DNA of 44,999 nucleotides, taken from a virus. The stretch lies in IMG/VR virus record IMGVR_UViG_3300047550_007046, positions 1-44,999 of that record; one strand, 5' to 3'. The notes beneath the pieces are model-generated. The model was not told where the DNA came from. It was given only the letters and a program-made list of their open reading frames with translations, and searched no databases. Shown piece after piece: positions 15,244 through 40,284 of this stretch; position 1 is the first letter of the stretch, and each line of letters starts with the position of its first letter. Position numbers and translations under genes: made by a program.

Positions 15244-15569
15244 TGTTATATTATTTCGCTTCACTTGATTCTGAAAATTTTGTTAATGCTGTTCATATTA
15301 TAGATGAACAAAATTGTTTAGATGAAAATGGTCAATTTAATGAAAATATTGCGATAAATTATTTAAACAATTTTCATGGTGAATCTAGATGGATTCGGAC
15401 GGAACAAGATTCTAACTTTAGATATCATTATGCTGGTATTGGCTACTATTACTACGAAGAATATGATGCCTTTGTTCCGCCAAGACCCGGAGATGATTAT
15501 ATCTTAAGTGAAGAATTTACTTGGACAGCAATAGATGTAAGACAATTTTTAGATTCAATAGAGATTTAA
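15243..15569 (+). CDS. Fibre-associated protein with YAGIGYxYYEEYDAFxPPRP motif
   Basis: A 108-residue protein. The segment FRYHYAGIGYYYYEEYDAFV followed by PPRPGDDY resembles a motif I know from marine and freshwater phage structural proteins encoded near tail fibres (YAGIGxxYDxxRDAFIxPxP). The N-terminal half contains FVNAVHIID and a small helical region. Function unknown; possibly a fibre subunit or chaperone. It shares its last 4 bases with the end of the convergent glycosyltransferase gene, and no terminator is visible between them. Confidence 0.65.
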   Translation: MLYYFASLDSENFVNAVHIIDEQNCLDENGQFNENIAINYLNNFHGESRWIRTEQDSNFRYHYAGIGYYYYEEYDAFVPPRPGDDYILSEEFTWTAIDVRQFLDSIEI

Positions 15570-16222
15570 TTATTATTAAGAATATTTTCAATTTTTCTTC
15601 TATATGTTAAATCCCAATCATGCATCTTATTCTTATTATCATAAGATAAGGAATCTTTCATTATTTGATATTTATCTCCACTAACATTTTTGTCAAAGCC
15701 AAAATACTTTAATGTATTTCCACCTTCTTCATGGTGATCAAAGAAGTTCTTAAGATTAAAAATAGTAATATTATTTTTATGTAATCTTTCTATATAGTCA
15801 ACTTCCTCACCGATACCAGGATAAAAATATTCATTAAAAAGTCCAACTTTTTCAACTAATTCTTCATGAATTGCAAAAGCAGAAAAATATCTACTTTTAT
15901 TTTTATCAAATATAATAGAGTCAAAATTAGAATCTATAATTCTTTGTAGCATATTAGGTTTAAAAATAATATCATCATTACAAATTAACCACCATTTAGA
16001 ATATGGTGTTAATTTTATTCCTAAATTCCATGATGCTGCAACACCAAGATTTCTTGGCATATTAATGATTGATATTTTTTTTGCAAAACTACATTCAATA
16101 TTTTTTAATTTTCCACCATTATCTATAATAATTATTTCTTCAACTTCAATATCAATTGAATTTAACATATTTTGTAATAAATCATAATGAATTAAAGTTG
16201 GAACTATTAAAACAGGTATCAT
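15566..16222 (-). CDS. GT2-like glycosyltransferase (second of a paralogous pair)
   Basis: A 218-residue GT-A-fold sugar transferase. Seen: an N-terminal nucleotide-binding strand pattern (VLIVPTLIHYDLLQNMLNSI, IIIIDNGG), the acceptor-loop motif MPRNLGVAASWNLGI, the metal-binding DxD-like NDD (WWLICNDDIIF), and a later GIGEEVDYIERLH acidic motif. It shares many positions with the upstream gene (NxGIKLTPxSKxWL, DDIIxxP), so the two arose by duplication. Their ATGA overlap means co-translation. Donor and acceptor are unknown. Confidence 0.82.
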   Translation of the reverse strand: MIPVLIVPTLIHYDLLQNMLNSIDIEVEEIIIIDNGGKLKNIECSFAKKISIINMPRNLGVAASWNLGIKLTPYSKWWLICNDDIIFKPNMLQRIIDSNFDSIIFDKNKSRYFSAFAIHEELVEKVGLFNEYFYPGIGEEVDYIERLHKNNITIFNLKNFFDHHEEGGNTLKYFGFDKNVSGDKYQIMKDSLSYDNKNKMHDWDLTYRRKIENILNNN

Positions 16223-16968
16223 AGTGTTTCTATTCCCATATTAAATGCAATATTTTCAAAATCATTATGTATTTTATATTGAGCCGATAGTCCACTCATT
16301 AAATCTTTTATTGCTGGATCATTAGCATCTCCAGGTATACCTTGAGTTCTCCTCCTTGATAGGCTCCAACCATTATTTATTGGTGGACCAAAAAGAGATC
16401 TATAAAAATTATTATTCCAAGTAGATATGGATATATCACCACTTAGTACCATTTCTTTTATAGTAGAACTCATTTCTGCTTGAAAAGTTCCTGTTATATC
16501 AACTTCATTTATATTATGATAGTGACATCTCTTGTGATAGTTAAAATCATCACCAGGAGCAGGGAAGAATGATTCATCTAGTAATCCTACTTTTGCAACA
16601 ACATTTTCTCCCATTGTTCTACATGCGAATGGTCTATTTGTATTCATAGCAATACATAGATTATCAGAGCCAGAAAGATCATTAATCTTCATTAGACCAC
16701 CAGGATTCCATATAATATCATCCTGTGCAAGAAGCCAGTACTTTGACATCGGTGTAAGTTTAATTCCAGTATTATATGCTATAGAGATACCTGAGTTATA
16801 TGGAAATTTTATAATTGATAACTCATTTGCTTGATTGCATGATAAAGTATTAATTTTTCCACCATTAACTATAATAATTATATGATCAATAGGAAAATCA
16901 ATACTATCAAGCATTGCTTGTAATTTTTGAGAATGTCCAAGAACTGGTACGATCATCGTCGGAATCAT
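16219..16968 (-). CDS. GT2-like glycosyltransferase (first of a paralogous pair)
   Basis: A 249-residue GT-A-fold protein with MIVPVLGHSQKLQAMLDSID, IIIIVNGGK, the FPYNSGISIAYNTGIKLTP loop, the metal-binding QDD (YWLLAQDDIIW) and the APGDDFNYHKRCHYH motif. It is a paralogue of the next gene with a longer C-terminal helical tail. The pair runs against the surrounding plus-strand genes and has its own promoter. That layout is typical of an inserted cargo module that modifies virion or host surface glycans. Confidence 0.82.
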   Translation of the reverse strand: MIPTMIVPVLGHSQKLQAMLDSIDFPIDHIIIIVNGGKINTLSCNQANELSIIKFPYNSGISIAYNTGIKLTPMSKYWLLAQDDIIWNPGGLMKINDLSGSDNLCIAMNTNRPFACRTMGENVVAKVGLLDESFFPAPGDDFNYHKRCHYHNINEVDITGTFQAEMSSTIKEMVLSGDISISTWNNNFYRSLFGPPINNGWSLSRRRTQGIPGDANDPAIKDLMSGLSAQYKIHNDFENIAFNMGIETL

Positions 16969-16974
16969 GGTATC

Positions 16975-16983
16975 ATTATATCA
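16975..16983 (-). promoter_or_regulatory. Extended -10 (TGATATAAT) for the minus-strand glycosyltransferase pair
   Basis: On the minus strand TGA-TATAAT ends 6 bases before the ATG at 16968. No Shine-Dalgarno is present, so a leaderless start is expected. It lies in the 66-base divergent gap shared with the oxygenase operon. Confidence 0.55.
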
Positions 16984-17034
16984 AATTTCTTGATGATAAA
17001 TTACTATTGTTCATCTATTTAAAATAGGAGATAT

Positions 17035-17634
17035 ATGACATTTAATAACTATCCAATCATTGTGAAAAATTTTTTTGATGTAGATATTCATAAAAAAATA
17101 TGTAATTTCTTAGAAAAGAATATAAAGTATTTTCCACTACAAGAAGATTTTATAACTTTTAATAGAAAAGAAGGTCATAATGTACCATTTTTTGTATCTA
17201 TACACAATCAATTAACAGATATTGCATCATATTACTTTAATGAAAAAGTAAAACCATCATACTCTTTTTTATCAATGTATAAAGAAAATGGAATCTGTCC
17301 ACTGCATATAGATCGCGATCAGTGTAGATATACAATTGATTATTTAATATCATCTACACAAGAAATGCCATGGCCAATACATATTGGAAAGCATATGACT
17401 GATCAAGAAAGATTAAATATATTAATTGGTGAAAGGGCAAGACCAATTGCGCAAAATGATGTTGATGAAATAATGTCCAAAGAAGTTTTTACAAGTGCGT
17501 TATTAAATCCAAATGATGCAGTGCTCTATTCTGGAACACATCAATGGCACTACAGATCAGAGAAATTAGTTGGAGAAGCAAATTTAGTTTTTTTTCATTT
17601 CGTACCGGAGTCTTATAATGGATCACTTAATTAA
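17035..17634 (+). CDS. 2OG-Fe(II) oxygenase-like protein
   Basis: A 199-residue protein with the jelly-roll iron motif: H91-x-D93 (CPLHIDRDQCRYTIDYLI) and a distal His with a basic residue (THQWHYRSE; H169 or H172, R174). This fits 2-oxoglutarate/Fe(II) dioxygenases, which hydroxylate proteins, sugars or small molecules. It overlaps the next oxygenase gene by 17 bases. Its position beside sugar enzymes suggests tailoring of a glycan or a virion protein; the substrate is unknown. An AGGAG site precedes the ATG. Confidence 0.72.
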   Translation: MTFNNYPIIVKNFFDVDIHKKICNFLEKNIKYFPLQEDFITFNRKEGHNVPFFVSIHNQLTDIASYYFNEKVKPSYSFLSMYKENGICPLHIDRDQCRYTIDYLISSTQEMPWPIHIGKHMTDQERLNILIGERARPIAQNDVDEIMSKEVFTSALLNPNDAVLYSGTHQWHYRSEKLVGEANLVFFHFVPESYNGSLN

Positions 17635-18250
17635 AAATAATATTAAAATTAATATTCCTGAATATGGAGATATTAATAGCAATGGTGGTGGTTGGTCCCT
17701 TGAATATGATCATGTTGAAAACTGGGCATGGGCATCATCTGTATTTTCAAAATCTGAATTAGATGCGATATGTAATATGGGATCTGATGCTCATTATTAT
17801 AAGGGAACAACAATTGGTGCATCTGATGAAAAAATGAGAAATTCATTTGTTTCATTCATATTTCCAAATGAAAATACATACTGGCTTTTTGATAGACTAG
17901 CTCAGATTATTCATAATACAAATAATAGTTATTTTAAATTTGATATAACTGGAATGATACAAGGGCTTCAGTTTACTCAATACTCTTCCCCGGGTGAGCA
18001 TTATTCATGGCATATAGACCGCGGCATCGGCTGTAGAAAACTAAGTCTATCTTTACAGTTATCTGATCCTGATGAGTATGATGGTGGTGATCTTGAATTA
18101 TGGTTTGGCGGCGAAGAGCCAATTAAAATGAAAAAAGAAAAAGGAATGATGACATTCTTCCCATCATATGCCCTTCACAGAGTATCGCCAGTTACTAGGG
18201 GAACTAGAAGGTCATTAGTTTGTTGGATATCTGGCCCGCCATTCAAATAG
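17618..18250 (+). CDS. 2OG-Fe(II) oxygenase, prolyl-4-hydroxylase/PKHD-like
   Basis: A 210-residue dioxygenase with a complete facial triad: H132-x-D134 (EHYSWHIDRG), H187 (FPSYALHRVSPVTRGTRRSL) and an arginine about 10 residues later (R197/R198) to bind 2-oxoglutarate. The DEYDGGDLELWFG strand is typical of the P4Hc/PiuC group. Free-standing enzymes of this type are common in phages, and most have no known substrate. It lies between another oxygenase and an RfbH-like enzyme in one tightly packed operon. Confidence 0.88.
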   Translation: MDHLIKNNIKINIPEYGDINSNGGGWSLEYDHVENWAWASSVFSKSELDAICNMGSDAHYYKGTTIGASDEKMRNSFVSFIFPNENTYWLFDRLAQIIHNTNNSYFKFDITGMIQGLQFTQYSSPGEHYSWHIDRGIGCRKLSLSLQLSDPDEYDGGDLELWFGGEEPIKMKKEKGMMTFFPSYALHRVSPVTRGTRRSLVCWISGPPFK

Positions 18251-18259
18251 GATTTGCAT

Positions 18260-19558
18260 GTGCAATTAAATGATCAAATTTTATCTTTTATAAAATCTTT
18301 ATCTGATTACGATAGTAGTCTTTTCCCATATATAGCAAACAAGTCAAATTTTGATAATAAAAAAGATACAGTCTATTATTCTGGTCCATTCTGGGATCAG
18401 AATGAAATTGTAGAAATATTTCATTCTTTTTTAAAAGGTAAATGGCTTGCATCTGGTGAAAAGGTAAGATTATTTGAACGAGAGTTTTCAAATAAATTCA
18501 ATTTCTTAAAATCCGTCATGGTTAACTCAGGTAGTTCTGCAAATCTTGTAATGATTGCAGCTCTTAAAAAATATTTTAACTGGTCTGATGGTAATGAAGT
18601 AATTGTATGTGCATGTGGATTTCCTACAACAATTGCTCCGATTATTCAAAACGGTCTAAGACCAATTTTTGTCGATATAGGCATGTCGGATCTCAATTGG
18701 GACATACAGCAAATAGAGTGTAAAATTACAAATAAGACAGTTGCTCTATTTTCATCACCTGTACTTGGAAATCCATATGACTTTGATCAAATAAATAGTC
18801 TATGTCATAAATACGATATACAACTTATATCAGATAACTGCGATAGTCTAGGTAGCAAATGGGATGGTAAATATCTCACTGACTACTCAGTAGCCTCATC
18901 GTGTTCATTCTATCCAGCCCACCATATAACAACAATTGAAGGTGGAATGGTTTCGTCAAACATCCCAGACATTGTTGATCTTGCTAGGAGTTTTGCATGG
19001 TGGGGTCGTGACTGCACTTGTGTAGGTGCACAAAATCTTCTCTCTTGTGGAAGTTGTAATAAAAGATTTGATAACTGGCTGGACAATTATGACGGTATAG
19101 TTGATCATAAATATGTTTTTTCTAATATTGGATATAATTTAAAGCCGGCAGACTTTCAAGGAGCCATCGGCTCAGTACAGTTAAAAAAGTATGATCTGAT
19201 ACACTCAGCAAGAAGATCTAATAAATCTTGTATAGAAAATATTATTACCAAAATAGATGGCATAAGAGTTGTTGGTGAGCATAAGAAAGCAGAAACTTCT
19301 TGGTTCGGTGTCCCTATTGTTTGTGAAAGCAGATCTTTGAAAGAAAGGCTCGTCGCCCACTTAGAAAAAAACAGAATTCAAACAAGAAGTTATTTTTCAG
19401 GAAATATCCTTGCCCATCCAGGATATGAACATCTTGATGATTTTAGAAAATATCCAAATTCAAATTCCGTGTTAAGCAGTGTATTCTTTTTAGGATGTTC
19501 TCCGCTGATTAATGATCAGATGATTGAATACATCAACGATGTAGTATCTACATTCTAA
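18260..19558 (+). CDS. RfbH/E1-like CDP-sugar 3-dehydrase (DegT/DnrJ/EryC1 fold, iron-sulfur type)
   Basis: A ~432-residue PLP/PMP enzyme of the sugar-aminotransferase fold. The usual catalytic Lys is replaced by His (SFYPAHHITTIEGG; typical family members have K here), as in 3-dehydrases such as ColD and E1/RfbH that remove the C3 hydroxyl from CDP-4-keto-6-deoxyglucose. A cysteine cluster, RDCTCVGAQNLLSCGSCNKR, fits the [2Fe-2S] ligands of the E1 type, and YSHIGYNLK-like FSNIGYNLKPADFQGAIG follows. No E3 reductase or later pathway genes are seen nearby, so it must use host partners or a different chemistry. The GTG at 18260 has an AGGA upstream; a TTG at 18254 is possible. Confidence 0.86.
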   Translation: MQLNDQILSFIKSLSDYDSSLFPYIANKSNFDNKKDTVYYSGPFWDQNEIVEIFHSFLKGKWLASGEKVRLFEREFSNKFNFLKSVMVNSGSSANLVMIAALKKYFNWSDGNEVIVCACGFPTTIAPIIQNGLRPIFVDIGMSDLNWDIQQIECKITNKTVALFSSPVLGNPYDFDQINSLCHKYDIQLISDNCDSLGSKWDGKYLTDYSVASSCSFYPAHHITTIEGGMVSSNIPDIVDLARSFAWWGRDCTCVGAQNLLSCGSCNKRFDNWLDNYDGIVDHKYVFSNIGYNLKPADFQGAIGSVQLKKYDLIHSARRSNKSCIENIITKIDGIRVVGEHKKAETSWFGVPIVCESRSLKERLVAHLEKNRIQTRSYFSGNILAHPGYEHLDDFRKYPNSNSVLSSVFFLGCSPLINDQMIEYINDVVSTF

Positions 19559-19618: not shown

Positions 19619-21010
19619 ATGATTAAGAAAGTTAACTTTAGATATATACGACTTCTTCCGGTCCTTTTATGGATCTTAATGTGGCCTGTGAATGCACCAT
19701 TTGCTAATGCATCACAAACTGCCGGCCTTTCGTATGTGACATACCAATCATTTGGAGGCTCGCCAGATCTTCCAACAGAGCAATCACAGGCGATCTCATC
19801 TGGAACTGTGCAGGCTATTGATTTCGATTGGGGTAGTGGGGTAGTTCTTGATTCTGGGCTATGGGATGGAGTTACCGTCAAATTTGATGGGTGGATCACG
19901 CCCCCAGAAGCCAAGACATATTACATGTGTGCTTATACAGACGATGGATTTCAGCTATATCTTGATGGTCAATTAGTTATTCCTGACTGGTGGGATCGTG
20001 GTCCTAGTTGTGGAAATACAGCGGATGTTGATTTCTCTGATGGTATGCCTAAACAATTATTGGCATACTATTATGAAAATGGTGGTGGTGCTGTTGCACA
20101 ACTTATGTACTTTACGGATTCAGGTGCCTGGGAAGTAGTCCCAGAATCTTGGTATACATCTGAGCCAGTCCCTACAACTACTACGACAACTACAGAAGTC
20201 ACAACGACAACTACAACACCCATACCAGAAGAAACAACTACAACGATTGAAGAAACAACGACAACTGTTGAGGAAACAACAACGACAATTGAAGAAACTA
20301 CAACAACTGTTGAAGAAACCACAACCACGACAGAACCAGAAACGACAACAACCACAGAAGCGCCATCTGATAATAACAACTCAGACCCCGACCCCGACCC
20401 CACGCCAGCGCCAGAGCCTGAACCAGAGCCTCAACCAGAACCCGAACCTGAGCCGACACCCGAGCCAGACCCCCAGCCAGAACCAACCCCAGAACCTGAG
20501 CCGACACCTGAGCCAGAACAGCCCGTAGAGACCCCTGAAGAGCCTTCTGAGCCTTCTTTACCAGAAGATCCGGTTGATGAGGTGACTGAACCTATAGAAG
20601 AGCCTGCCGTGGAGGAACCAGAGACAATTGCTGATCTTCCCGTTGAGGACATAATTGCTTCAATTGAGGAGATATCAGTTACAGAATTATCAATAGATGA
20701 AATTAATGCAGTTTTTAGTAATGATGTATTAACACAATTAAATAATGATGAAGTAGAAGAATTAATTAATTCAATTAATCCAAGTGAGTTAACAGATGAG
20801 CAAGCAGAAGTTCTTTCTGAGGCTCTAACAAATGCCCCCGAAAATGTTAAAAAGGAGTTTGAAGACCAAATAAATATTTTTGGCGGTCAATTTGATTCAT
20901 ATGTACCAACCGGATCAGTAATAACAGTTGGTCAGAGAAGAGTCATAGTCGCAGTAGCAGCAGTCACAATGATTGCTCCTGCTCCCGTGATGTCTTCAAG
21001 GAGAAAATAA
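19619..21010 (+). CDS. Secreted PA14-domain surface protein with Thr-rich and Pro-rich stalks
   Basis: A 463-residue protein. Residues 1-31 are a signal peptide (basic start, LLPVLLWILMWPVNAPFANA). Residues ~35-180 are a PA14-type beta-barrel (YYMCAYTDDGFQLYLDGQLV, then a segment ending AQLMYF) of the kind that binds sugars. Residues ~186-256 are a Thr-rich stalk of TTTT-E units, and ~260-340 a Pro/Glu-rich stalk. An acidic helical region follows, and the end is a hydrophobic stretch plus SSRRK. It looks like a cell-surface anchored protein, unusual for a phage lysis region. Possible roles are superinfection exclusion or altering the host surface. The function is not known. Confidence 0.8.
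   Translation: MIKKVNFRYIRLLPVLLWILMWPVNAPFANASQTAGLSYVTYQSFGGSPDLPTEQSQAISSGTVQAIDFDWGSGVVLDSGLWDGVTVKFDGWITPPEAKTYYMCAYTDDGFQLYLDGQLVIPDWWDRGPSCGNTADVDFSDGMPKQLLAYYYENGGGAVAQLMYFTDSGAWEVVPESWYTSEPVPTTTTTTTEVTTTTTTPIPEETTTTIEETTTTVEETTTTIEETTTTVEETTTTTEPETTTTTEAPSDNNNSDPDPDPTPAPEPEPEPQPEPEPEPTPEPDPQPEPTPEPEPTPEPEQPVETPEEPSEPSLPEDPVDEVTEPIEEPAVEEPETIADLPVEDIIASIEEISVTELSIDEINAVFSNDVLTQLNNDEVEELINSINPSELTDEQAEVLSEALTNAPENVKKEFEDQINIFGGQFDSYVPTGSVITVGQRRVIVAVAAVTMIAPAPVMSSRRK
20246..20294. repeat. 49-base stretch shared with the LPxTG gene (copy 1)
   Basis: This part of the Thr-rich stalk matches positions 22393-22441 at 48 of 49 bases. The single difference is a G/C change near the 3' end. 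It encodes EETTTTVEETTTT units. Near-identity at the DNA level points to recent duplication or recombination between the two genes. Confidence 0.85.
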
Positions 21011-21195
21011 TGAAAAAAATATTTAAAAAGTTTTTTAAAGAATCATATTCATTACTATGGACAATAGCAGGAACTGCTCTTGTCCTTATAACAATGTCTG
21101 GTGATGTTTTAAATTATGCACTCTGGATAAGCGGTGCTGGATTAGCAATACATTTTTTAGGATTGCTTTTTATAAAGGAGGAAGACAATGACTAA
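21010..21195 (+). CDS. Small two-helix membrane protein of the lysis region
   Basis: A 61-residue protein with a basic N-terminus (MKKIFKKFFKE), two hydrophobic helices (LLWTIAGTALVLITMSG and YALWISGAGLAIHFLGLLFI) and an acidic tail (KEEDND). Two helices and this charge layout fit a class II-type holin or antiholin. It starts on the last base of the previous stop and overlaps the next membrane gene by 8 bases. Confidence 0.7.
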   Translation: MKKIFKKFFKESYSLLWTIAGTALVLITMSGDVLNYALWISGAGLAIHFLGLLFIKEEDND

Positions 21196-21436
21196 GTTTC
21201 AAACTATAGCTCAGAGAATCGCCGCTGTTTTTGTGGTTTCATCTTTGCCAATTATCGGAGGTTCATCTGTAATTGGTGGTATCCCTGTTTGGAAAGCCGC
21301 CCTGCTCGCTGGATTTACAGCATGTACTGATGTTTTTATTAAACTTGCTAAGGCATCCCTTGATGGAGAACTAACTATGGATGAAATTAATGAAGCATTT
21401 CTTGGTACAAAAAATGTGCAAAAAGAGGTTAAGTAA
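21188..21436 (+). CDS. Probable holin
   Basis: An 82-residue membrane protein with two helices (AAVFVVSSLPIIGGSSVIGG and VWKAALLAGFTACTDVFIKL) and a charged C-terminal tail (DGELTMDEINEAFLG). This resembles actinophage r1t-type holins in size and layout. It has a strong AAAGGAGG site and lies in the region with the endolysin, so it is the best holin candidate. The neighbouring 61-residue protein may be a partner or antiholin. Confidence 0.7.
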   Translation: MTKFQTIAQRIAAVFVVSSLPIIGGSSVIGGIPVWKAALLAGFTACTDVFIKLAKASLDGELTMDEINEAFLGTKNVQKEVK

Positions 21437-22731
21437 TGAAAATAAAAAAATATTTACCATTCCTGCTTTTCCCAATATTAATTGTTGGGAGTATAAGTAG
21501 CGCAAGCGCTGCTAATATTGCAAATGCTGATTTTGAATCTGGTGACTTTACTGAATGGGATAAAGGTTCTCAGACAGGAGTCTTGGGTAGTCTAATCACA
21601 GGAAGTGGTTCTGGGGTGTCAATCATTGATGGCTCAGTTACATTTAATGCTCCACCTGGTTCTGAGGTTGGCACTCCTGGTACTGAATATTATCAGCCTC
21701 CTACTAATGCTACGGCTTGGGTTTTTTCTCCCTATGGGGACTACGGCGCTGCGCTACAACCAGCAAGTCAATTTACATTTGATAATGCAATAAGTTCTCT
21801 GGGCTTAAGTGCCGCTGATAACACTGCTATGAAGCAGGTCATGTCTTCACAGGCAAGCGCTAGTGGCTGGGGTAGTGGTAATCCTACTGATGCTGCTTGG
21901 ATTACAAAGGATGTTTCCTTGGAGGCCGGAACTTTATATACAATGTCTTGGAACTATATTGGTACAGATTATGTACCTTTTAATGATGGCTCAATAACAT
22001 CCTTGGTGTTTACGGGTTCTGGTTCAACTCCTGATATTACAGTAAATAATCAAGATCAAAACTATGCTCTTCTTGGTTTTACTAATCCTGGTACTGGTGA
22101 TTATTCAACTGGGACATACGGATCTACTGGATGGCAAATATCAACTTATGAGGTATCTGTAAGCGGTACCTATAGACTTGGATTTGCTGTATTCAATCTT
22201 GATGATACAGCACTATCACCAGTTCTTTTAATTGATAGTCAACCTGGCAGTACAACTAAAAATGGAGAAGACTTTGGCGCTGTTACTCCTAACAACTCAG
22301 ATGCACCAACTGTTCCCCCGACAACCGAAACCCCTGTTGAGACTGATCCACCGACTACAACAGTTGAGACAGATCCCCCGTCAACAGATGTTATTGAAGA
22401 AACAACGACAACTGTTGAGGAAACAACAACCACAATTGAAGTAACTACTACAACTGAGATTGAAGAAACTACTACAACAGAAGTTGAACAAGTCACGACA
22501 ACAAGACCTAGGGAAACCACTACTGAAGTTGAAACAACTGTTATTGAAACAACTGTTGTTAAAACAACTGTTGTTGATACGACTATAACTGATAATAATA
22601 CTACAAGTGACACTATGCCAATAGGTCAATTACCAAAAACTGGTTCTGATAGCAATATATTTATCATGGGATCATTGTTAATATTCTTTGGATTATTTAT
22701 AATAAATATAAGAAAATGGCTTAATATCTGA
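21436..22731 (+). CDS. LPxTG cell-wall-anchored surface protein
   Basis: A 431-residue secreted protein. It has an N-terminal signal peptide (KYLPFLLFPILIVGS ... SSASA cleavage), then a ~260-residue beta-rich domain starting NADFESGDFTEWDKG, like carbohydrate-binding or PEP-CTERM-type sandwich domains. A Thr/Glu/Val-rich stalk follows (about residues 280-390). A textbook sortase signal ends it: LPKTG at about 399-403, a hydrophobic helix, and RKWLNI. It should be covalently linked to host peptidoglycan by host sortase. The gene sits between holin and endolysin and starts on the last base of the holin stop. Such a gene in a phage is rare; it may block superinfection or alter adhesion of infected cells. 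Confidence 0.85.
   Translation: MKIKKYLPFLLFPILIVGSISSASAANIANADFESGDFTEWDKGSQTGVLGSLITGSGSGVSIIDGSVTFNAPPGSEVGTPGTEYYQPPTNATAWVFSPYGDYGAALQPASQFTFDNAISSLGLSAADNTAMKQVMSSQASASGWGSGNPTDAAWITKDVSLEAGTLYTMSWNYIGTDYVPFNDGSITSLVFTGSGSTPDITVNNQDQNYALLGFTNPGTGDYSTGTYGSTGWQISTYEVSVSGTYRLGFAVFNLDDTALSPVLLIDSQPGSTTKNGEDFGAVTPNNSDAPTVPPTTETPVETDPPTTTVETDPPSTDVIEETTTTVEETTTTIEVTTTTEIEETTTTEVEQVTTTRPRETTTEVETTVIETTVVKTTVVDTTITDNNTTSDTMPIGQLPKTGSDSNIFIMGSLLIFFGLFIINIRKWLNI
22393..22441. repeat. 49-base stretch shared with the PA14 gene (copy 2)
   Basis: Matches 20246-20294 at 48 of 49 bases in the same orientation and frame sense. It lies in the Thr-rich stalk of the LPxTG protein. Confidence 0.85.
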
Positions 22732-22787
22732 ACTTTACAAAAGAGGGTTGAAGTTATAAAATATACTTATATAAAGGAGTGATACAA

Positions 22788-23492
22788 ATGGGTAGACCTT
22801 ATACAGGATGGAATGGTGATTCTGCTGGAAAGCGTGCCGGCACCGAGAAATTTGTTCAGTTGTTATCTGAGCATTTTAATAATGGAGTTTGGAATAATGG
22901 AACTTGGAATGTCAGGCCAGCCCGTGGTTCTGGCAAGCCCTCAGTCCATGGTACTGGTCGTGCTGCTGATCTTTCTTGGCGTAAAAATGGAAGTAAAGGA
23001 TTTGGCGACTACAATACCGCCCTTCAGGTTGTAAACTTTTTAATTGCTAATTCTGAGGTTCTTCTGATAGAAGAAGTTCATGATTATTTCCTAAAACCAC
23101 ACGGTAGAGGGTGGAGATGCGATAGATCCGCATGGAAGGTTTACGATAAGCCAACTATAGGGACTCCTGGTGGTGATTGGTGGCATGTGGAGATTGCGCC
23201 AGCGCATGCTGATGATCCTGCTTATTATGAAAAAGTTTTTGCTGGGCTGAAAGGTAAGCCAATTCCTGCCGCCCCTGCTAGTAATGGACCACTTGCTTTT
23301 GCATTCCCAGGCACTCCTCTTAAAAAGGGTTCTAAAGGAGATGCTGTCAAGCTAGTACAAAGTGTTATTGGATTGAAGGCTGATGGGGATTTTGGTCCTA
23401 AGACAGAGGAGGCAATTAAAGTTTGGCAGAAATCAAGACAATTAAATCCTGATGGTATAATTAATTTAGAAGATTGGGATGTGATGTTTTAA
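22788..23492 (+). CDS. Endolysin: M15-type zinc peptidase with C-terminal peptidoglycan-binding domain
   Basis: A 234-residue protein that should cut peptide cross-links of the host cell wall. The zinc triad of M15/VanY-like peptidases is visible: H54 and D61 in SVHGTGRAADLSW, and H133 in DWWHVEIAP. Residues ~170-232 are a PG_binding_1-like domain (LKKGSKGDAVKLVQSVIGLK, then DGDFGPKTEEAIKVWQ). The ATG at 22788 follows AAGGAG; an in-frame GTG at 22779 lies within that site. No signal peptide is seen, so it needs the holin to reach the wall. It stands downstream of holin-like and surface protein genes and just before the Cys-rich peptide. Confidence 0.9.
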   Translation: MGRPYTGWNGDSAGKRAGTEKFVQLLSEHFNNGVWNNGTWNVRPARGSGKPSVHGTGRAADLSWRKNGSKGFGDYNTALQVVNFLIANSEVLLIEEVHDYFLKPHGRGWRCDRSAWKVYDKPTIGTPGGDWWHVEIAPAHADDPAYYEKVFAGLKGKPIPAAPASNGPLAFAFPGTPLKKGSKGDAVKLVQSVIGLKADGDFGPKTEEAIKVWQKSRQLNPDGIINLEDWDVMF

Positions 23493-37164: not shown

Positions 37165-40100
37165 ATGGCTGCCCCCACACTACAAGCGCAAGGATCAAGC
37201 GCATCTAATACCACTGGTAACCTTGCTATTACGTTACCTGCTTATACTACGAACGATATCGTCGTTATTACAACAGTTGGTTGGGTACCGAATACAACAA
37301 CAGGAACTAATACTCAGTCGTTAGCTTCTCCATGGAATAAATACAGTCCAGATATTACCACTATTACTGGCGGTATTATTGATGCTGAGTATGCTTTTTG
37401 GTGGGCAAGGGCTACATCTTCTTCATCGCTTGGAACCACAGTAACTATTACCCGTCCGACTTCGTGGGATACAGGTACGGATACTTGTTGGGCTGGTCGT
37501 GCTTATGTGATCCGTGGTTGTGAAACAACAGGTAACCCGTTTGACCAGTTGACCGCTACTGCTATTTCAACGGCTGCTAACCCAGCATTGCCTGCGGTTA
37601 CTGTTAGTGCTGCTGAACGAAATGTGATTGCGTTTTATGTTTCGGCTGACAATAATACGGCTCCGACTGCTGCGACTGGTTATACCGTTGGCACGGCTGA
37701 TACAACACCGACTGGTACGGATGCCGGCTTTCAGACGTATAGCGACGTAACAAATACATCTCTTACAACTGTTACTCCAACTGGTGGAGCTGCTCCAGCA
37801 CAAGGTGGCCAAGTATATTTCTCGGCATCTTTTAAAAAACCACTTGTAACCCTTAGTAGAACTGCTACAAATACTGGCACAGGTACTCAGTCTGCAACTA
37901 AAGTAATTACAAAAAGTAGAACTGCGTCAGGTACAGGTACGGGCACAGGTTTAGCAATTGGATCTAATGGGGTTAAGAGAACTGCTTCTGCATCTGGAAT
38001 TGGAACTCAAACATCCACATATAATTTTTATACAATTATTCAAAGAACAGCAACCAATTCTGGTACTGGATCGTCTGGTAATACTACATATTTTAAGAGG
38101 GTTAGATCTGGTACTGCTAGTGGTGGTGCAACTAATGGCGACCAAGCAATCAGATTAGTTACATCAAAGAGAACAGCATCGAATTCGGGGTCTGGGACAC
38201 AGAGTGCAGTTGGAGTTATTAAAAAATTAAGAACTGCAAGCGCAACCGGTACTGGATCCCAGTCGGCATCTGCAATAAAAAAGAAATTACGCACAGCAAG
38301 TGAATCTGGTATAGGCACACAAAGTGTAACACAGATAAAATCTTTATTTAGGTCTGCATCATCAACTGCTACATCATATGAAAATGCTGGATATGCTGAT
38401 CTTGGATGGGTTGATTCATATTATTCAATAACAATAAGTAGTAGAGGCTATGACTTTTTACAATGGAATCCATCACTTGTTCTTGCATCTAGTCAATTAA
38501 GTATTGATTCATCACTTACTGTAAATGCTACTGCAACACAAGTAACAAAATCGGCATCTGTTTCAATAAGTATTGATTCTGATCTAGTAATATCAGGTAC
38601 TGAGATTCAATTTGCATCTACTACAATTAATGCTACATCAAACACAGTTGCAATATCAACTGGAATTAGATTGGCAAGTGGTAGCTTTAGTGCAATAGTT
38701 GATTTAACTACTGAGGGAATAGAACAACTCAGAGCATCTATAGGAATTGACTCTTCTGTTTCTGTATCTATTACATCAATTAAATTTGCTTATTCATCAA
38801 TAAATATTAGTTCTGATGTTACAACACAAATTGTTGGTAGAGAAATACTATATGCTAATTCACAAATTATTATCGATTCTAATCTTGCTGCGTCATCACT
38901 AGAGATTGCAAAAGCACAAACTACATTGTCAATACAATCAAATACATCAATCTCTACTTATAAGATTCAATACACAACTATTAGTATTGCATCCACTAGT
39001 CAATTAAATGTTCTTGTTAATAAATCAACATCAACTTCATCAACAGTATCTGGTAATTTAGTATCAATAATTAATGGAACAAGAATTCAGCCGGCCAGCG
39101 CTAACATTGGGCAACTAGATGGATCAGTAACTGTAACTGCCAAAGAAATTCTCTATGCTTCATCAACAATTAGTATTCAATCTGCACTTACCGCTTCAGG
39201 TACTGAGGCTTTAGTTGCGAGTATCAATATAAATACTGATGGATCTATTCTCTGTAGCGCAACGCATATTAGACATATTAATCCTTCCATATCTCTATCT
39301 ATCAATACAGATATAACAATACTTTCATTAAAGGCTAAATCTATTGAAGATGGTTGGACGGATTCATACTATTCAGTTACATTCCCAGGCAGAGGATATA
39401 GATTCTATGGTGTCGATGCTATAACTGATCTTGTTATCGTAAGAATATATGGTGAATCTGATGTTGTAACATCTGCTACAAGAATACACAATGCTCAAAT
39501 ATCAATTGACGCTAGCGTGAGCGTTACATGTTCTGCTGTTAAGAAACTCTTATCAATTCCAGCAACATCAAATATGACAGTAAAAGCCCAGGCTATTAAA
39601 TTTGGCGAAAGCCAATTGGAAATAACATGTCAATTAAATATTCTCACAATAAAACTTGGAATTGTTGATGTTGATGAGATGTCTTCATCTGTTACGTCAA
39701 CACAAGTTGCTAAAGAAATTCTATATGCAACAAGTTCTATTTCATCAACATCAGTAACTGTGATTGTTGGAAAAGAATATCAATTAGCAAAAATTAGCAT
39801 AAATGCTCAACTTTCAATGTTAATTGCTGGTGCAACTAGATTTAGCTCATCAATAATAGAAGATACTCAGTCAATTAGAACATTACTCATTATTGATAAT
39901 AAACCAATAACAGAGCATAATAGAAAAATATCAAGTACAATAATTCAATCATTTATTGAACAAAAAAATTGGGAATCTAGTAGAAGTCGATACTATAAAC
40001 CTGACTCCGGTAGAAAATCCTTTTCAATTTCATGGAAAGAGGTTCCTAATTTGAGAAATGATACCGTAGACTTAAGATTTGGTAGAGATTTCATAACTGA

Positions 40101-40284
40101 AATAGGATCAGATCCTGATATTCATATACTAAAAGTCCTAAATACTGACTCAGATGGAGTAACGCCATATACAGAAACAGAGTATAATGTTATAGTAAAA
40201 TCTTATTCTGAGTCTTTAGTTAGAAGAGATTTAGTTGGTGAATCATATCTATGGGACTGCAATCTGGAGTTAGAGGAAGTATAA
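37165..40284 (+). CDS. Large repeat-rich minor tail/fibre protein
   Basis: A 1,039-residue protein. Residues 1-220 form a beta domain (NLAITLPAYTTNDIVVITTV ... GGQVYFSASFKKP) found in other phage fibre proteins. Residues ~230-405 hold about nine copies of a ~20-residue repeat with the core RTASxSGxGTQSA. From ~410 to ~895 there are many ~27-30-residue beta repeats with a SIxIDSxLxVxxxxI pattern, interrupted by two copies of a GWxDSYYSxTxxxRGYxF element (near 38406 and 39352). The last ~140 residues repeat the 36265 domain. It is likely a fibre or tail-tip protein whose C-terminus attaches to the tail. Confidence 0.8.
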   Translation: MAAPTLQAQGSSASNTTGNLAITLPAYTTNDIVVITTVGWVPNTTTGTNTQSLASPWNKYSPDITTITGGIIDAEYAFWWARATSSSSLGTTVTITRPTSWDTGTDTCWAGRAYVIRGCETTGNPFDQLTATAISTAANPALPAVTVSAAERNVIAFYVSADNNTAPTAATGYTVGTADTTPTGTDAGFQTYSDVTNTSLTTVTPTGGAAPAQGGQVYFSASFKKPLVTLSRTATNTGTGTQSATKVITKSRTASGTGTGTGLAIGSNGVKRTASASGIGTQTSTYNFYTIIQRTATNSGTGSSGNTTYFKRVRSGTASGGATNGDQAIRLVTSKRTASNSGSGTQSAVGVIKKLRTASATGTGSQSASAIKKKLRTASESGIGTQSVTQIKSLFRSASSTATSYENAGYADLGWVDSYYSITISSRGYDFLQWNPSLVLASSQLSIDSSLTVNATATQVTKSASVSISIDSDLVISGTEIQFASTTINATSNTVAISTGIRLASGSFSAIVDLTTEGIEQLRASIGIDSSVSVSITSIKFAYSSINISSDVTTQIVGREILYANSQIIIDSNLAASSLEIAKAQTTLSIQSNTSISTYKIQYTTISIASTSQLNVLVNKSTSTSSTVSGNLVSIINGTRIQPASANIGQLDGSVTVTAKEILYASSTISIQSALTASGTEALVASININTDGSILCSATHIRHINPSISLSINTDITILSLKAKSIEDGWTDSYYSVTFPGRGYRFYGVDAITDLVIVRIYGESDVVTSATRIHNAQISIDASVSVTCSAVKKLLSIPATSNMTVKAQAIKFGESQLEITCQLNILTIKLGIVDVDEMSSSVTSTQVAKEILYATSSISSTSVTVIVGKEYQLAKISINAQLSMLIAGATRFSSSIIEDTQSIRTLLIIDNKPITEHNRKISSTIIQSFIEQKNWESSRSRYYKPDSGRKSFSISWKEVPNLRNDTVDLRFGRDFITEIGSDPDIHILKVLNTDSDGVTPYTETEYNVIVKSYSESLVRRDLVGESYLWDCNLELEEV
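37853..38390 (+). repeat. Array of ~20-residue RTAS-SGxGTQSA protein repeats
   Basis: About nine degenerate ~60-base units inside the 37165 gene. Each encodes a basic residue, RTA(S/T), then a Ser/Gly/Thr core (GTGTQSA-like) and a variable spacer. The DNA is diverged while the protein pattern is kept, so the array is old or under selection at protein level. GC content falls across it. Confidence 0.7.

Follow-up and report, generated by a model that had tools for sequence, protein, structure and literature searches.

Phage genomes are usually read as sets of virion, replication, and lysis genes supplemented by metabolic extras. Phage-encoded proteins of the bacterial cell surface are also known, one of them being SasX, encoded by a PhiSPbeta-like prophage of Staphylococcus aureus, which is anchored to the cell wall, promotes intercellular aggregation, and helps to avoid phagocytic clearance (PMC10232760). 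Another described system is the stalk protein of the Actinomycetia phage DSL-LC01 (OQ999401, WJZ48438.1), a metagenome-assembled phage with a host known by prediction only (PMC10611076). This protein, annotated as hypothetical, carries Thr stalks, an A4 domain, and a TM61 module as in the gene cassette described below. In contrast to that cassette, its TM61 module is fused to the stalk protein, and both an LPxTG motif and a beta ectodomain are absent.

The window, i.e., the whole stretch of DNA analyzed here, is a viral record of 45 kb (44,999 nucleotides, 36% G+C, possibly a fragment). It encodes a protein, P0001, which by its sorting signal is predicted to be, like SasX, a phage-encoded, wall-anchored surface protein. 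Whereas SasX is prophage-borne and affects the lysogen inside an animal, the P0001 gene lies beside lysis genes, and the SasX-like carriage by a temperate phage was not found: a tyrosine integrase (PF00589) was absent from the window and 13 related records (14 in total, possibly fragments). Because of this absence, lytic use is likely; the phage is probably lytic, and lysogenic conversion was rejected. The ectodomains differ as well, that of P0001 being a predicted carbohydrate-binding module (CBM)-like jelly roll, unlike SasX (the two systems are compared by description). In the literature collection searched, no earlier description of LPXTG or PA14 proteins of freshwater actinophages or of the present family was retrieved. 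As far as checked, a lysis-linked passenger domain that occurs across phyla on host-matched anchors is undescribed.

Organization of the lysis region

The major capsid protein of the window shares approximately 50% identity with its counterparts in Streptomyces phages. The lysis region is a run of coupled genes encoding P0002, TM61, TM82, and P0001, followed by the endolysin:

19619–21010, + strand: P0002, second stalked surface protein, 463 aa; PA14 domain (E 4.5e-7), A4 family, cellular homologue in L167
21010–21195, + strand: TM61, two-helix membrane protein, 61 aa; phrog_29041; paired with the A4 domain, to which it is fused in other phages
21188–21436, + strand: TM82, holin-like membrane protein, 82 aa; phrog_26427; homologues match the holin family phrog_443
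21436–22731, + strand: P0001, sortase-type surface protein with signal peptide, predicted CBM-like ectodomain, Thr stalk, LPKTG, helix, and basic tail
21436–21510, + strand: P0001 signal peptide, residues 1–25 (MKIKKYLPFLLFPILIVGSISSASA), read from the sequence; hydrophobic N-terminus
21517–22296, + strand: P0001 ectodomain, residues 28–287 (260 residues), predicted CBM-like jelly roll with a helical insert (alignment A5, AlphaFold2, Foldseek, remote NF038132 match)
22297–22626, + strand: P0001 Thr/Glu/Val-rich stalk, residues about 288–397 (translation)
22630–22644, + strand: P0001 LPKTG sorting motif, residues 399–403 (translation, six-frame scan)
22657–22716, + strand: P0001 hydrophobic helix (residues 408–425) and basic R426-K427 of the sorting signal (translation)
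22779–23492, + strand: endolysin; N-terminal domain with family-wide "lys" relatives, PG_binding_1

The P0001 open reading frame (431 aa) coincides exactly with the one named in the original prediction, which had placed it inside the lysis region. This location was confirmed by the holin-like gene 5′ and the PG_binding_1 endolysin gene 3′ of it. The second stalked protein (19619–21010) and the wider family had been absent from that prediction. The start codon of P0001 overlaps the final base of the upstream stop codon and is preceded by the ribosome-binding-like sequence AAAGAGG. P0002 consists of a signal peptide, the PA14 domain, a Thr stalk, a Pro/Glu stalk, and a C-terminal helical A4 domain with a transmembrane segment and an RRK end; its own sequence contains no LPxTG motif. 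The family phrog_26427 carries the label "nuclease," which was rejected for TM82, a hydrophobic protein of 82 aa with homologues in a holin family. The members found here are hydrophobic proteins of 81 to 100 aa near lysis genes, two of which also match phrog_443, and the label looks wrong.

The sorting signal and a putative host sortase

All parts of a complete sortase signal named in the original prediction were found in the P0001 translation. The N-terminus is rich in lysine and hydrophobic, with a signal peptide site between ASA and A, and the C-terminus combines the LPXTG motif, a hydrophobic helix, and a basic tail, with a short tail following R426-K427. A chance occurrence of the motif was ruled out by translating the window together with 163 related loci in all six frames (164 sequences, 2.06 Mb; 11,478 ORFs with a minimum length of 60 aa) and scanning for LPxT[GASN] with a hydrophobic stretch within 15–50 residues and a basic end. 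Sixteen ORFs matched this pattern, 14 of which were the surface protein of this cassette; the remaining two were short (94 and 63 aa). With the LPXTG anchor model TIGR01167, P0001 scored 15.1 bits, slightly below the cut-off of 15.9, which its homologues in L001 (18.1) and L003 (22.3) passed; the score with the Pfam model PF00746 (11.1) was under the cut-off of 20.

The motif is retained in at least nine further phage forms (at least 10 with the window) despite divergent stalk and tail sequences. It reads LPKTG in the window, L001, and L003, LPVTG in L047, LPNTG in L120 and L200, LPSTG in L178, and LPITG in the L180 group, L194, and L229. The earlier statement that phages rarely carry such a signal fails in this phage group, because LPxTG proteins recur at the same position. 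In four loci (L138 7364–8920, L155 8240–9697, L156 8598–9971, and L160 9806–11104), the same slot is occupied by LPETG/LPDTG proteins that contain Big_1-like domains and in which a His-rich stretch directly precedes the sorting motif. In a tblastn search with P0001 and a Big_1-type LPETG protein, none of 50,697 phage records matched; the relatives came from IMG/VR, and a family limited to described phages was therefore rejected.

A sortase gene was detected in none of the 14 phage records; a sortase supplied by the phage itself was therefore dismissed, and the phage would have to rely on the enzyme of its host. Sortase genes are common in Actinomycetota, PF04203 having been found in 244 of 296 sampled genomes, some of them 1.0–1.5 Mb in size. 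Class E sortases, which occur in soil and freshwater Actinobacteria, prefer LAXTG over LPXTG (PMC5148588), and another sortase class would thus be needed for P0001.

Predicted fold and conservation of the ectodomain

An AlphaFold2 model based on 15 family members (pLDDT 82.5, pTM 0.86) predicts a CBM-like beta-sandwich jelly roll. The best solved structure in Foldseek was TmCBM61 (E 5e-4, prob 1.0), followed by CBM16, CBM4, and CBM27, with which the P0001 ectodomain has the predicted fold in common. Since the TM-scores were moderate (0.38 by query), the fold class is supported and the ligand is not. Compared with CBM61, the P0001 domain is larger, contains a helical insert, and shares 11% identity. 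A sequence search against solved structures retrieved no convincing relative. The tryptophan residues 41, 95, 155, 172, and 233 are invariant in the family alignment. The C-terminal half of the ectodomain is remotely similar to the PEP-CTERM family NF038132 (E 3.8e-6 to 6.5e-9), the sorting signals of which differ from that of P0001. Membership in this family was rejected, as the scores of 26.7–35.7 bits (26.7 for P0001) compare with a cut-off of 90, and NF038132 is considered a remote relative only.

A profile scan detected the ectodomain in 98 IMG/VR contigs. When actinobacterial and cyanobacterial phages are compared, its sequence identity amounts to 59–71%. Purifying selection acts on the P0001 ectodomain (dN 0.25, dS 1.13 against L003). 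Two further viral proteins with this ectodomain, named "Autotransporter beta-domain" and "Curlin associated," were found in BFVD (38% and 42% identity). A DNA-pattern scan for curlin-type relatives gave no clear one among the matches listed. An actinobacterial metagenome-assembled genome (MAG; L163 566–3097) encodes a cellular homologue of the ectodomain, embedded in a large secreted protein rich in repeats. As the sole match on a cellular contig, located in a repeat-rich secreted protein of a high-GC MAG, it was rejected as an indication of the host.

One passenger on three anchors

The ectodomain relatives (59–71% identity) are found on three kinds of anchor, namely LPxTG tails, the A4 domain together with TM61, and an autotransporter-like barrel. 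The A4- and TM61-anchored forms (L074, L129, and L130) are proteins of about 900–1300 aa. The one in L130 (P0007) is a full fusion, in which the products of the separate genes of the window are joined in one chain. A single-sequence search of IMG/VR with P0002 gave no match, and an A4 profile scan identified at least 219 IMG/VR contigs with the C-terminal A4 domain of P0002. Among 296 Actinomycetota genomes, the A4/TM61 pair occurs in one (L167), adjacent to an apparent phosphoglycerate mutase gene, gpmI. Because of its occurrence in a cellular actinobacterial genome, the pair is regarded as a cellular anchor and not as a part of the virion; judged from these sequences, it looks like a membrane anchor of cells that was acquired by phages. 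In L167 (22–2246), an RCC1-like, Thr-stalked A4 protein is followed by the TM61 homologue and adjoins the gpmI-like ORF; this module is apparently a cell-surface anchor without earlier description.

In the ectodomain tree, the window groups with L003 (support 100/97). The A4-anchored forms constitute one clade (100/100), counting the truncated L080, which is labeled OM by default, and so do the barrel forms (93/79). The anchor type thus tracks lineage with few switches, which indicates that each phage group kept its own mode of display.

The barrel is predicted from a model of the L011 family (pLDDT 68.6), for which Foldseek retrieved NalP (E 2e-5, prob 1.0) as well as EstA and EspP. The C-terminal barrel fold of these type Va autotransporters is hence predicted in the cyanophage relatives, with a translocator barrel of about 12 strands in the predicted structure of the L011 family only; no Pfam autotransporter model matched at E 0.1. 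It is the anchor of the cyanophage relatives alone, whereas P0001 uses LPxTG. Wherever they were readable, the barrel-type contigs were cyanophages: the ORFs of L052 include psbA and psbD, and the lysozymes of L011 and Synechococcus phage DSL-LC02 share 92% identity. In all loci with enough flanking sequence (53/53), the barrel-type gene is located directly downstream of a lysozyme gene. Synechococcus phages DSL-LC02 (L168 5814–7673) and DSL-LC03 (L170 2359–4008) encode the same barrel after a lysozyme or endolysin gene, and the DSL-LC03 protein is annotated as an autotransporter barrel. The passenger of DSL-LC02 differs from that of the window, which indicates passenger exchange on an anchor that is itself conserved. 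DSL-LC01 to DSL-LC03 are of lake origin, which suggests that the relatives are from freshwater.

Proposed function and alternative explanations

The original prediction had P0001 displayed on the wall of the infected cell before lysis, and the comparison agrees with it: one passenger is common to three unrelated cell-surface anchors, which argues for display on the infected cell and not in the virion. Because none of these anchors suits virion assembly in the cytoplasm, we strongly infer that P0001 is exposed on the cell exterior, which on the sequence evidence is very likely. CBM-like jelly rolls are also found in phage tail fibers and in non-binding roles, and glycan binding by the ectodomain, suggested by the predicted fold, is somewhat probable. 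Adhesion as the benefit to phage fitness is conjectural, though a real possibility.

Our preferred reading, to which we assign a probability of about 0.45, is that P0001 is a late, host-sorted, lectin-like cell-surface adhesin of a lytic actinobacteriophage. P0001 would be produced along with the lysis genes, leave the cytoplasm through the Sec pathway of the host, and become attached to peptidoglycan by the action of a host sortase. Its stalk would project the CBM-like domain from the infected cell and, once the cell has lysed, from wall fragments, and P0001 would act beside the PA14 protein P0002, held in the membrane through its A4 domain and TM61. The infected cell could then adhere to glycans of neighboring cells, particles, or exopolymer, and the progeny might be freed near new hosts or the fate of the cell in the water might be altered. 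The linkage to lysis exists in both host groups, with the holin-like gene and endolysin in the window and the upstream lysozyme gene in the cyanophages (53/53). The high identity of the passenger in phages with hosts from two phyla points to a target other than the receptors of the host itself. Among the roles suggested originally, altered aggregation, which is equivalent to adhesion, fits the CBM-like fold best. Conservation alone cannot separate adhesion from other surface functions.

The other roles in the original prediction, superinfection exclusion and receptor masking, would have the stalked domain block receptors so that late-infected cells or debris adsorb neither phages nor progeny. 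Phages do use surface proteins to block receptors, as phage T5 does with Llp, which is a precedent for this idea. The surface location and the expression from a lysis operon would provide the right place and time, and a dense layer of stalks could act sterically. However, exclusion that sets in with the lysis genes would be late, and a specific receptor blocker should diverge with its host, whereas the ectodomain is conserved (59–71% identity) between actinobacterial and cyanobacterial phages, the receptors of which should differ. The blocking function is less favored and rather unlikely. The presence of the passenger in phages of two phyla, which makes an environmental target probable, would also be compatible with altered sinking or with protection from grazers. 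In this ecological version of the adhesin model, the displayed lectin would change the handling by protists or the attachment to particles and thereby protect the burst. SasX, which promotes intercellular aggregation and helps to avoid phagocytic clearance (PMC10232760), lends some plausibility to such an effect, which we consider unlikely overall.

The operon shared with a holin-like gene and an endolysin, and the fusion of TM61 to stalk proteins in some phages, would also suit a lysis factor, in which the A4/TM61 and LPxTG proteins form a wall–membrane complex that times or localizes the holin or endolysin, with the ectodomain as a secondary element. This is improbable, since the ectodomain is the most conserved part and points away from the membrane, and the A4/TM61 pair lies beside gpmI in a cellular chromosome. 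Furthermore, the cyanophage version is an outer-membrane-type barrel without A4 or TM61, and the barrel is kept in DSL-LC02 and DSL-LC03, in the former with a different passenger. A decoration fiber of the head or tail with a misleading C-terminus is a highly improbable explanation: although the P0001 gene lies between head and tail genes and carbohydrate-binding jelly rolls are common in tail fibers, a signal peptide and a sorting signal do not suit virion assembly in the cytoplasm, and neither do the autotransporter-like barrels and transmembrane anchors of the relatives.

A conserved ectodomain under purifying selection thus spans phages of two bacterial phyla on three host-appropriate surface anchors, adjoining lysis genes in the window and in all 53 cyanophage loci with enough flank, and this shared use suggests that the decoration of the dying host's surface is a common, little-studied viral strategy. 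If the protein is displayed, infected plankton cells would carry a virus-made surface just before bursting, and aggregation, grazing, and virus encounter rates could change. Extending the adhesin reading, we tentatively propose that lytic phages of unrelated aquatic bacteria share a lectin-like passenger, mounted via the sorting route of each host (sortase, membrane anchor, or autotransporter) within the lysis program, as a general infected-cell adhesin by which the doomed cell and the phages it releases may become glued to particles or new hosts. The cassette also accounts for several phage proteins that are encoded next to endolysins and labeled "hypothetical."

Further genes of the window

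Two other regions of the window were conspicuous. Between the head and lysis genes, positions 15566–19558 contain likely accessory genes. Two minus-strand ORFs are glycosyltransferase-2-like, and the others encode a 2OG-Fe(II) oxygenase (PF13640), an unassigned protein of 199 aa, and a DegT/DnrJ aminotransferase. This block suggests a sugar modification of the virion, the DNA, or the cell surface. In the tail region, a long ORF (37165–40284) contains repeated RTA-(N/S)-GTGTQSA-like motifs, and its product is a probable repeat-rich structural protein.
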